Shown: positions 19,685-50,532 of the stretch, piece by piece
Numbering within the stretch: the stretch's first letter is position 1
Layout: the number at the start of each line of letters is the position of its first letter
Assembly (NCBI RefSeq): GCF_900162685.1
Contig: NZ_LT727828.1
Span: 331,703-395,702, forward strand
DNA: 64,000 nt
Direction of reading: 5' to 3'
Source of the DNA: Terribacillus halophilus
Lineage (GTDB): Bacteria; Bacillota; Bacilli; Bacillales; Amphibacillaceae
Notes under the pieces: generated by a model
Told to the model about the DNA's origin: nothing
The model's input: only the letters and a program-made list of their open reading frames with translations
Databases searched by the model: none
Translations under genes and position numbers: made by a program

Positions 19685-19854
19685 GGCTGAGACAAATAAA
19701 AAACACCTTCAAGGTTGAAAACGGACGATTGTTATCCTAAATAATCCTTGGAGGTGTTTTTTCTATGGGAACTAGAGTCAGTTATCCAGTGGAGATAAAA
19801 ATGAAGGCAGTTGAAATGAAATTGGCAGGCGTACCTGTAAAAGAAATTGCATGA
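19685..19854 (+). mobile_element. IS3-family transposase remnant (5' end)
   Basis: From ATG 19765 a 29-codon frame reads MGTRVSYPVEIKMKAVEMKLAGVPVKEIA and stops. This is the start of an IS3-family OrfA with its first helix-turn-helix (SYPVEIKMKAVEMKLAG, VPVKEIA). Upstream, AAAAAACACCTTCAAGG (19698-19714) and its near-perfect complement (19746-19762, one mismatch) form a hairpin in front of the start, as seen at the left end of such elements, and the outermost bases read GGCTGAGACAAA. OrfB and the right end are missing, so this is an inactive fragment. Confidence 0.65.
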
Positions 19855-20128
19855 TACATATAATCTATTGTTGTTGTTGGATAAAAAGTATACTGACTTC
19901 GAGAAAGAAGATTTTGTCGATGCTTGCAATAAAGTACAGGGTTTATTGTCAGCAATCAAGAATATCAATGTAAAAAAGCCATTGGATATGTATATTAATA
20001 CTTTAACTTTCATTAGAAAGAAGTATAATGTTCCATACAGAAGAACGGATATTTTTAATAGTTTTAAGACTGATTATGGAAAAGTGGAAGGTGACGAGAT
20101 ACATCACACTTATGAGCCTAATGCATGA
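19847..20128 (+). CDS. Unrecognised AT-rich frame next to the IS remnant
   Basis: A 93-codon frame beginning with a TTG inside the end of the IS remnant, without a ribosome site. The product is lysine- and asparagine-rich and helical (ACNKVQGLLSAIKNINVKKP, then NTLTFIRKKYNVPYRR). It is markedly more AT-rich than the neighbouring genes, which suggests acquired DNA. It is more likely the 3' part of a gene cut by the IS or by a deletion than a complete gene. I do not recognise a family. Confidence 0.3.
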   Translation: MHDTYNLLLLLDKKYTDFEKEDFVDACNKVQGLLSAIKNINVKKPLDMYINTLTFIRKKYNVPYRRTDIFNSFKTDYGKVEGDEIHHTYEPNA

Positions 20129-20169: not shown

Positions 20170-20604
20170 GAGACTGGGACAAACGAGATTAAATCAGTAT
20201 AAAAGCGAACGTTTAATACATCATACTTTTACTTAATTTCTCTGACGGCTGCTGCCTCTCCAACTCTTGCTGTTACCGTTGGACAAGAATAGCTTTTAAA
20301 GTAAGACACCGACAAGAAAATTGCTTCTTATTTTCGAGGAGTCTTCCTATTCCGCCTACACTTAGGGAATACACAAATCAGCGTAGGAAATACACGGAGA
20401 CTCCCGCGGGAGGAAGGCTAGGGGAGACCCCGCAGTGCGTTTTTTTGCACGAGGAGGCTCACCAGCCGCCCGCAGGAAAGCGGAGTGTATTTCCGAAGCG
20501 GTGCTCTCATCTTAGTTTCTAATCAAAAAAATCCAAACAATTCTGCTGTTAATTGCAGTATTGTTTGGATTTTTATATAGCTTAAACTGTTATGTCCCAG
20601 TCTC
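20170..20604 (+). repeat. Structured dispersed repeat, copy A (435 bp)
   Basis: A non-coding element bounded by a perfect 12-base inverted repeat, GAGACTGGGACA (20170-20181) and TGTCCCAGTCTC (20593-20604). A second copy lies in opposite orientation at 49678-50107. Internal structure: GGAAATACAC (20386-20395) pairs with GTGTATTTCC (20485-20494), enclosing GC-rich hairpins such as CCGC-AGGAAA-GCGG. Near the right end, ATCCAAACAAT (20531-20541) pairs with ATTGTTTGGAT (20560-20570), followed by T5 as in a terminator. No credible coding frame is shared by both copies. It behaves like a MITE-type or structured-RNA repeat. Confidence 0.85.
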
Positions 20605-48299: not shown

Positions 48300-48348
48300 A
48301 TTGTGTTATTTATCAGACTTTTCGAATAGTTAGTTGGAGGTTTTTTGC

Positions 48349-49665
48349 GTGTCACAGAAAGTACCAGGTAAATTTACGGTCATGCTTGGCTTGATGCTTT
48401 TTGCTTTATTCTTTGGAGCAGGAAATTTAATTTTTCCGCCGATGCTAGGGCAGCAAGCTGGTGAAAATATATGGGTAGCAAATGCAGGGTTTCTTGTAAC
48501 AGGTGTTGGACTGCCTTTAATTGGTATAATTGCTTTCGTTTTCTCGGGTGAGAAAGATCTTATGTCATTATCCAGCAGAGTCCACCCTGTTTTCGGAATT
48601 GTTTACACGGTTATTTTATATCTTGCTATCGGGCCGTTCTTTGCAATTCCGCGTGCGGGGAACGTATCTTATGAGATTGGCTTGAAGCAGCCGTTTTTGT
48701 CTGCAGATCCTGGGCCGTTTCCATTAATTGTTTTCTCTATTATTTTCTTTTTGATCACGTGTTTATTGTCTTTAAACCCGACGAAGATTATTGATATAAT
48801 CGGGAAATTCTTAACGCCAATCAAGTTAACGTTTATTGGCTTGCTTGTGCTAGTTGCAATCATATACCCAATCGGGAAATTTAAGGCACCGACAAGTGCG
48901 TATACGAGCAATGCTTTCTTTAATGGATTCCAAGAAGGTTATTTAACACTTGATGCGCTTGTAGCATGTGTTTTTGGGATTATCATTGTTAATGCAATCA
49001 GAGGTAAAGAAATAACGAAAAAAGCAACAGTTATGAAGGTTTGCTTACTAGCAACTGGCCTGGCAGCTGTTGTCTTAGGTGTAATTTATACAGCACTTGC
49101 TTTTATGGGAGCTTCCAGTGTCAGTGAACTTGGTTATTTGAATAATGGGGCCGAAATTTTGGCTGATGTTTCTAACCATTACTTCGGTTCTTGGGGGCAA
49201 ATTTTCCTCGGTCTAATGATTACAGTTGCCTGCCTGACAACGAGTGTTGGTTTAATTACATCCTGTTCAACTTTCTTCCATGAGCTAATGCCGCGTATCT
49301 CTTATAGGACTTTCGCAGTCATCTTGTCTATCTTTAGTGCGATTGTTTCAACTGTTGGGCTTACAGAATTGATATCTATCTCTGTTCCGATATTGATGGC
49401 GATCTACCCGATTACGATTAGTCTAGTGTTCCTAACATTTCTTCATTCACTATTTAAAGGGAGAAGAGGAGTATACATCGGCAGTCTTGTACTGACATTC
49501 TGTGTGAGTATTTTTGATGGTTTAAATGAGGCTGGCCTGCAAGTGGCAGCAGTAAATGATCTTTTCACGAAGATCTTGCCTTTTTATGATGTAGGTCTTG
49601 GATGGCTAGTGCCTTCCATCTTAGGAGGCTTGCTTGGACTGCTTGTGTCTCAGCTTAGAAAATAA
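48349..49665 (+). CDS. brnQ: Branched-chain amino-acid transporter BrnQ
   Basis: A 438-residue LIV-II carrier with about twelve membrane segments. Family signatures are MLGLMLFALFFGAGNLIFPPMLG (ends MLGLMLFAL and GAGNLIFPP), GPFFAIPRAGNVSYEIG (about residues 95-111) and LTTSVGLITSCSTFF. It imports leucine, isoleucine and valine with Na+ or H+. I chose GTG 48349 because TTGGAGG (48334-48340) is 8 bases upstream; the frame is open a little earlier but includes that site. Single gene, followed by repeat copy B. Leader palindromes suggest regulation, possibly by amino-acid supply. Confidence 0.93.
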   Translation: MSQKVPGKFTVMLGLMLFALFFGAGNLIFPPMLGQQAGENIWVANAGFLVTGVGLPLIGIIAFVFSGEKDLMSLSSRVHPVFGIVYTVILYLAIGPFFAIPRAGNVSYEIGLKQPFLSADPGPFPLIVFSIIFFLITCLLSLNPTKIIDIIGKFLTPIKLTFIGLLVLVAIIYPIGKFKAPTSAYTSNAFFNGFQEGYLTLDALVACVFGIIIVNAIRGKEITKKATVMKVCLLATGLAAVVLGVIYTALAFMGASSVSELGYLNNGAEILADVSNHYFGSWGQIFLGLMITVACLTTSVGLITSCSTFFHELMPRISYRTFAVILSIFSAIVSTVGLTELISISVPILMAIYPITISLVFLTFLHSLFKGRRGVYIGSLVLTFCVSIFDGLNEAGLQVAAVNDLFTKILPFYDVGLGWLVPSILGGLLGLLVSQLRK

Positions 49666-49677
49666 GAAGAAGAGAAC

Positions 49678-50107
49678 GAGGCTGGGACATAACTGTTTTA
49701 GCTATATAAAAATCCAAACAATACTGCATTGTTTGGATTTTTTGCATTGGAAACGGAGATGAGAGCATCGCTTCGGAAATACACTCCGCTTTCCTGCGGG
49801 CGGCTGGTGAGTCTCCTCGTGCTAAAGCACCGCGGGGTTTCACCGAGGCCTTTTTCCCGCGGGAGTCTCCGTGTATTTCCTACGCTGATTTGTGTGATGG
49901 GAAACCTTCATTCGTGTAGGTAGAATAAGTAGACTCCTCGAAAATAGATAGCGATTTTCTTGTCGGTGTCTACTTCAAAAGCCATTCTTGTCCGACGATA
50001 ACAGCTAATGTTGGAGAGGCAGCAGCCGTCAGAGAGCTGCATTAAAAAGTATGGATCTAGTTATCGTTCGCTTTTAGGATGAATTAATCTTGTTTTGTCC
50101 CGCTCTC
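49678..50107 (-). repeat. Structured dispersed repeat, copy B (430 bp)
   Basis: Reverse-oriented second copy of the element at 20170-20604. Ends are GAGGCTGGGACA (49678-49689) and TGTCCCGCTCTC (50096-50107), an imperfect terminal inverted repeat. Read on the minus strand it aligns with copy A nearly end to end: identical long blocks include GGAAATACACGGAGACTCCC and CACCAGCCGCCCGCAGGAAA. Hairpin loops differ while stems are kept (GTGC-TTTA-GCAC here; GTGC with eight loop bases in copy A). The terminator-like stem ATCCAAACAAT/ATTGTTTGGAT (49712-49738) is also kept. The two copies are intergenic, one ending 13 bases after brnQ. Confidence 0.85.
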
Positions 50108-50112
50108 TTTTC

Positions 50113-50532
50113 TTATGCTGGTTGGTTTCTGAGCTTCCCGCCGGCGATAAACAATAAGATAGGGACAATAATTGTTAGTAAAGATAGGATTGCTGCGCTA
50201 TATAAGGTAAAGCGAGCAGCATCCGGTTTATTGGCAATTAATAGGAAACCAACCAATATAATTAAACAGATAATTGCGATATAAACGGTAGGGATTACGA
50301 AGAAAATTTGCAGTATCGACATAGTTTCAGCTGCCATTTTGGTGAGGGAAATAGAAGGAGCTTCTCCTGCCTCCAACTGTCGCTGATATTTCGGGTCATC
50401 TTCCAAAAACGTCGTCACGGCTTGTTCCATAGACTTGTTCTGTGGCAGTGTGATTGTGAATATGAGACTTCCGATAAAAACAAGAAGCAATAATGTGAGT
50501 GCAATAATTGTTAAGGTTTTAGAAGTTTTCAA
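50113..50532 (-). CDS. DUF4064-type membrane protein
   Basis: A 139-residue membrane protein with four hydrophobic stretches (about residues 7-27, 75-93, 96-110, 115-131) and a polar extracytoplasmic loop (MEQAVTTFLEDDPKYQRQLE, about 35-54), the layout of DUF4064 proteins. Function unknown. TTG 50532 is the start, with an AGGAGGTGA site 7 bases upstream. Its stop lies 6 bases from the end of repeat copy B, so that repeat forms the 3' flank of this gene and might terminate its transcript. Confidence 0.7.
   Translation of the reverse strand: MKTSKTLTIIALTLLLLVFIGSLIFTITLPQNKSMEQAVTTFLEDDPKYQRQLEAGEAPSISLTKMAAETMSILQIFFVIPTVYIAIICLIILVGFLLIANKPDAARFTLYSAAILSLLTIIVPILLFIAGGKLRNQPA

Follow-up and report, generated by a model that had tools for sequence, protein, structure and literature searches.

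A probable non-autonomous IS1182-type element of Terribacillus halophilus, with a terminator-like hairpin and a conserved structured core

Two copies of a foldable element and their setting

The window analysed here is a 64,000-nucleotide stretch of the Terribacillus halophilus genome, and it contains two copies of an intergenic element, referred to as copy A and copy B (Table 1). Copy A lies between the gene for a branched-chain amino acid carrier and a convergent small gene with no assigned function. Copy B is on the opposite strand and aligns with copy A at 81% across 458 columns. The only reading frames that overlap the element are of 62 and 64 amino acids. Elsewhere in the window there is a SAM riboswitch (RF00162; 62106-62210, plus strand, 90.6 bits), and the stretch beside copy B at 19686-19860 looks, by eye, like the remnant of an IS3-family element that is complete at locus L008 of our set; about 1 kb around this stretch is absent from the sister genomes G003 and G002.

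Table 1. Features of the two element copies and of the genes beside copy A. Positions are those of the window.
Feature	Position	Strand	Remarks
Element copy A	49678..50107	+	430 bp
Element copy B	20170..20604	-	second copy in the window
Left terminal inverted repeat, GAGGCTGGGACATAAC	49678..49693	+	identical 16 bases end an IS1182-family copy (L082) of sister species G005
Right terminal inverted repeat, GAGAGCGGGACAAAAC	50092..50107	-	ends IS1182-family copies of G003, e.g. L087 and L090
Terminator-like hairpin, bidirectional, copy A	49708..49742	.	arms 49708-49722 and 49728-49742
Terminator-like hairpin, copy B	20527..20574	.	18-base loop
118-base structured core, copy A	49769..49886	+	model R1 match G000:C13:381471-381588; covariation
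Core, copy B	20380..20500	-	model R1 match G000:C13:352082-352202
Outer core stem, 5' arm GGAAATACAC	49775..49784	+	partner GTGTATTTCC at 49871-49880
Core apical hairpin GTGC-TAAA-GCAC	49819..49830	+	fold; covariation
Second stem GTAGAC...GTCTAC	49929..49973	+	by eye; contains a CTCCTCG...CGGTGTCT motif
Upstream gene, branched-chain amino acid carrier	48334..49665	+	TIGR00796, 506.7 bits; stop codon 12 bases from copy A
Convergent small gene, no assigned function	50113..50532	-	stop codon 5 bases from the element

A preliminary description of this sequence had held that stems are kept between the two copies while their loops vary, and the alignment of the window copies bears this out. The stem formed by GGAAATACAC and GTGTATTTCC is exact in both copies, as is the ATCCAAACAAT/ATTGTTTGGAT stem, which has a loop of 5 bases in 49678-50107 and of 18 bases in 20170-20604. 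The GTGC/GCAC pairing (49819-49822/49827-49830) is also kept, around a loop that is 4 bases long in copy A (minus strand, TTTA) and, in copy B, 8 bases long and rich in T; from these loop letters, the "copy B" of the preliminary description is 49678-50107 and its "copy A" is 20170-20604. The same description placed a sequence resembling a Rho-independent terminator at the end of each copy. The hairpin is indeed present, but further in, at about 30-65 bases from the GAGGCTGGGACA end, and the very end on that side is the terminal inverted repeat. The motif within the second stem is like one in the core, perhaps through internal repetition of a structural motif.

A search of the genome returned 58 matching stretches, corresponding to at least about 40 places, a lower bound because 40 of the 68 first-look candidates were scored. 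We took 39 loci, leaving out L008, where the copy is split by an IS3-family insertion, and L041, a repeat fetch; 32 of the 39 entered an alignment of the genome's own copies. The aligned copies share their ends: the left one reads GAGGCTGGGACATAAC and the right one, in most copies, TTTTGTCCCrGyCTC. Many of the copies lack part of the centre. The likeness between copies is probably due in part to common descent by transposition. We saw no direct repeats flanking the element when the printed copy borders were inspected by eye. Searches of phage and plasmid collections, which may omit records of this genome, gave no match to the element at E 1e-5.

Crude reading-frame calls place 21 of the 39 own copies between convergent genes, 18 between codirectional genes and none between divergent genes; for 16 copies in G003 the numbers are 9, 7 and 0, and the two sets are not fully independent because some sites are common to both genomes. 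Where the neighbouring genes are codirectional, 14 of 18 own copies (p = 0.03) and 5 of 7 copies in G003 have their hairpin end turned towards the gene whose 3' end is at that site. In a large survey, IS1182 is one of the families over-represented between convergent genes (PMC9208149).

IS1182-family relatives and hairpins at empty sites

Among 10 genomes of the genus, three (G003, G005 and G008) have a match above the cut-off of NF033551, the IS1182 transposase model. Complete IS copies in G003 and G005 are 1837-1849 bases long and encode a transposase above that cut-off, and both 16-base ends of the element are identical to ends of these copies: the left end, GAGGCTGGGACATAAC, is one end of the G005 copy, and the right end is found in G003, where IS copies end in GAGAGCGGGACAWAAC or GAGACTGGGACAAAAC. 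These ends were absent from the three G008 copies that we inspected. In the 13 IS copies displayed, hairpins can be seen by eye just inside both ends. The element resembles the G003 and G005 copies in its terminal inverted repeats, in the hairpin inside its end and in the replacement of hairpins described below (tested for the IS in G003); unlike them, it does not encode an IS1182 transposase, and it has a core. We considered the core as a possible part of the complete IS and rejected this, with 0 core matches in 14 IS loci. The element is short, repeated and non-coding, with ends common to a full-length element, as is typical of MITEs, and we have not filed it as an IS because it has no transposase gene and its genome gave no match to the family. 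Since no IS1182-type transposase was found in the 13 contigs of its own genome using NF033551 and PF05598, we infer the helper transposase from the sister species.

At the site of copy A, the sister genomes G003 and G002 have a AAATCTCCTCC-loop-GGGAGGAGATTT hairpin between the two convergent genes, with flank homology that reaches up to the element, and three further, more distant congeners have other hairpins at this site. We chose 21 further own copies, located the orthologous flanks in relatives and compared them; this gave 41 comparisons, one of them without a downstream match. In the 40 comparisons with two flanks, the gap between the flanks is 20-44 bases in 29, 57-127 bases in 4 and 284-402 bases in 7, the last being filled sites, 6 of which look element-like by eye. 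Twenty-five of the 29 short gaps are strong inverted repeats, scoring above the 99th percentile of 2000 random 27-mers, and four fall below the cut-off; the mean inverted-repeat score is 8.9 for the short gaps versus 3.5 for the random sequences, whose length is fixed at 27 whereas gap lengths vary. Sixteen of the 21 copies have one or more relatives with a strong inverted-repeat gap. Of the four longer gaps (57-127 bases), the three that were scored contain repeats scoring 10-11. Flank homology resumes no more than 5 bases from both ends of the element in 21 of the 29 short-gap comparisons, and 6-26 bases from one end in the other 8. The target-site duplication that would mark a conventional MITE was not seen at borders or gaps, and we reject a target-duplicating MITE on this basis.

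The presumed parent IS behaves in the same way. Among 12 IS copies in G003 whose flanks were searched, 7 sites were comparable, one was uninformative and four had no usable pair. In all 14 comparisons at the 7 comparable sites, the relative has, where the IS sits, a stretch of 21-29 bases that folds into a hairpin; the energies, computed with some flank included, are -14.6 to -22.6 kcal/mol. No target duplication was found at the 7 sites displayed.

The replacement of terminators is already known for this IS family. In the reports on IS1272 and TnSha1, IS1182-family elements of staphylococci, insertion replaces or partly deletes hairpins without target duplication, and some of the target hairpins are terminators confirmed by RNA-seq mapping (PMC5678879; PMC4923244); some older IS1272 insertions are described as having targets that are not inverted repeats (PMC5678879). 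As in those published accounts, the element stands in place of hairpins with no target duplication seen; unlike IS1272 and TnSha1 as described there, it is 430 bases long, has no transposase gene and has a structured core. Comparison of the sequences shows IS1182-family ends, a hairpin at the gene-end site in the sister species and the loss of that hairpin with no target duplication seen. Given the short hairpins at sister-species sites and the lack of target duplication, we therefore suggest that the element replaced Rho-independent terminators.

The element also carries a hairpin of its own. The left hairpin folds in all 32 own copies examined (plus-strand segment energies of -15.5 to -31.9 kcal/mol, with similar minus-strand values), and in most of these a T run flanks it on both strands, as judged by eye. 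A consensus scan did not report this hairpin as a terminator in either window copy; the scan gave one terminator-like site per window copy versus 0.5 expected, which is about chance level, and no promoter-like site in either copy. We aligned 24 of 41 hairpin segments (alignment A3), leaving out repeats and short or shifted segments. Across these 24 distinct copies, 94.3% of cells pair versus 92.9% in shuffled alignments, and 4 of 16 pairs have double changes versus 1.3 in shuffles; the close relationship of the copies keeps this signal small. One inner pair is open in most copies (16 of 24). We noticed no hairpin like this one beside the right end, and termination from the right side is therefore unexplained.

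We propose that the element is very probably a MITE-like transposable element, non-autonomous and belonging to those that IS1182/IS1272-type transposases mobilise, that it replaced a hairpin at a gene end and would restore termination with its own terminator-like hairpin, and that its core is a conserved folded passenger. An IS1182/IS1272-type transposase would recognise a target hairpin by its shape, and the element would take the place of that hairpin by the inverted-repeat-replacing mode published for IS1272. The hairpin inside the left end may then restore termination for the gene that lost its terminator, and the insertion would therefore be tolerable. Hairpin-replacing insertion, described for staphylococcal IS1272, thereby comes to include a high-copy, non-autonomous element of Bacillales. 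A possible reason why such insertions are tolerated is that the element's own terminator-like hairpin substitutes for the one removed. Among the matches listed in our literature search, which had most subscription journals outside its scope and covered papers in which sequences are seldom printed, there was no description of the element or of its core, and the available parts of PMC4666352 and PMC4889114 contain nothing bearing on either. Within the literature searched, a non-autonomous form with its own hairpin and core appears to be new.

A structured core conserved across Bacillales

When the whole element was used as a query, matches were found in 24 of 41 genomes (its own included); beyond the closest congeners, the matches listed fall mostly within element positions 87-222. 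The core model, R1, has matches in 153 of 199 genomes of the order Bacillales and in 77 of 97 genera, where no more than 18 candidates were scored in any one genome. By pattern scan, at least 118 stretches were found in named genomes, and the 80 that were listed include Halobacillus, Oceanobacillus, Peribacillus, Neobacillus, Sporosarcina, Planococcus and Kurthia. Core loci were examined in 80 of these stretches, and 16 of the 21 loci L112-L132 were used with them. A core match of 68.1 bits was also seen at L191 (273-395), in Pisciglobus halotolerans, which by its name is perhaps outside the order; if so, horizontal transfer or contamination may be involved.

The preliminary description had read the element as a transcribed, folded RNA and had pointed to covariation in a larger alignment as a check. 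We made this check with shuffled and slid alignments, rather than R-scape, as controls. In a MAFFT alignment of 19 sequences (A1: 17 of the 19 loci L042-L060 and the two window copies), double changes occur in 21 of 38 pairs, with a covariation score of 0.269 versus 0.109, the structure having been derived from those same sequences. In an alignment of 111 matches, the proportion of cells that pair is 91.7%, double changes are seen in 34 of 39 pairs, and the score reaches 0.424, versus 0.119 shuffled and 0.043-0.067 slid; this alignment was fitted to the model and includes several copies from the same genome, and each of these features works in favour of the covariation result. Double changes in the 111-sequence alignment affect all 10 pairs of the outer core stem (helix 2) and all 4 pairs of the apical hairpin (helix 7), and the internal loops have near-invariant letters. 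The covariation shows selection on the pairing of the core. The earlier reading is thus partly supported: constraint on pairing stands, with covariation above both controls, as does the presence of a terminator-like hairpin, but the main identity was missed, a mobile element at sites where relatives have a terminator hairpin.

Kept pairing can reflect DNA hairpins as well as RNA, and we accordingly describe the core as a conserved folded passenger module whose pairing may be selected in either form. Outside two near-fixed U-G columns there are 105 A-C mismatches versus 49 G-U; counted by pair, the numbers are 19 versus 9 (p = 0.09). This bias weakly favours the minus strand as the one that forms the RNA. 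No Rfam model reaches its gathering score over the element or over the core in 8 other loci, and we therefore rejected a known Rfam family; at E values up to 5, the element matches just four low-scoring microRNA models. The core is a structured module of about three-quarters of the order's sampled genomes for which an RNA function and a DNA function can be directly tested against each other. Like bcr1 and other stem-loop repeat families, the element is intergenic, repeated and foldable (PMC2267715). Bhal-1 of Bacillus halodurans (74 bases, 36 copies), a family described in the same paper, could overlap the core.

Carriers of the core and alternative readings

Seven groups of core loci have multiple copies, at least two of them usable; G023 (no usable copy) and G202 (one usable copy) were left out. 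In five of the seven (G093, G103, G119, G139 and G042, with weaker agreement in G119), there are GAGGCTGGGACA-type ends on both sides, enclosing conserved blocks of 217-286 alignment columns; G108 has an IS1182-type end at the right only and G010 has none. For 96 of the 111 core matches, the 450 bases to the left and to the right contain no IS1182-type end. Some cores, at L201 3635, L180 6306 and L159 851, adjoin other inverted repeats (CAGACTGTAGACAAA, AAACTGCGAAGT), which suggests that there are several kinds of carrier. We regard it as a genuine possibility, short of a probable one, that several unrelated elements carry the core as a mobile or hitchhiking unit in its own right. The matches without IS1182-type ends, the other inverted repeats and the two groups lacking a full pair of ends are all consistent with this reading. 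Nonetheless, we did not find a precise empty core site inside an element, own copies without a core have varied deletion ends, and the other end types come from single loci and are short inverted repeats, some of which may be due to chance.

Core loci in general tend to avoid divergent gaps: once 12 of 93 loci had been excluded because they adjoin the edge of a contig or locus, 6 of 81 cores lie in divergent gaps, versus 57 of 285 gaps in the same loci (core gaps included). We tentatively entertain a broader reading, which we consider rather doubtful, in which the core belongs to an undescribed family of structured RNA, or of single-strand DNA, that extends across the order, has a selected function and was acquired by mobile elements of several kinds; an element of the terminator-replacing kind would then serve as a substitute gene end and also set a structured 3' region in place.

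Less likely still is a structured RNA that benefits the host, as a 3' untranslated region or small RNA, with RNA function as the main reason for conservation. The order-wide covariation, the near-invariant internal loops and the weak minus-strand hint from the mismatches would all fit such an RNA, as would the predicted folds, which are lower in energy than dinucleotide shuffles for the whole element (430 bases; -152.2 kcal/mol, z = -5.4) and for the core (-56.9 kcal/mol, z = -5.0). On the other hand, the replacement of hairpins by an element with IS-type ends points to a transposase, the element is absent from a sister species at most sites tested, copies with central deletions are common, and both window copies lack a promoter-like site. 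Lastly, an interspersed terminator repeat spread between intergenic regions by gene conversion, without transposition, would account for copies at gene ends with a terminator-like hairpin, but is highly improbable given how close to both ends flank homology resumes, the identity of the element's ends to IS ends and the same target replacement by the IS. We retain the non-autonomous IS1182-type element as our reading of the locus. At L166, L169, L177, L179, L192, L220 and other loci, two inverted cores lie within a few hundred bases of each other, forming larger palindromic arrangements.
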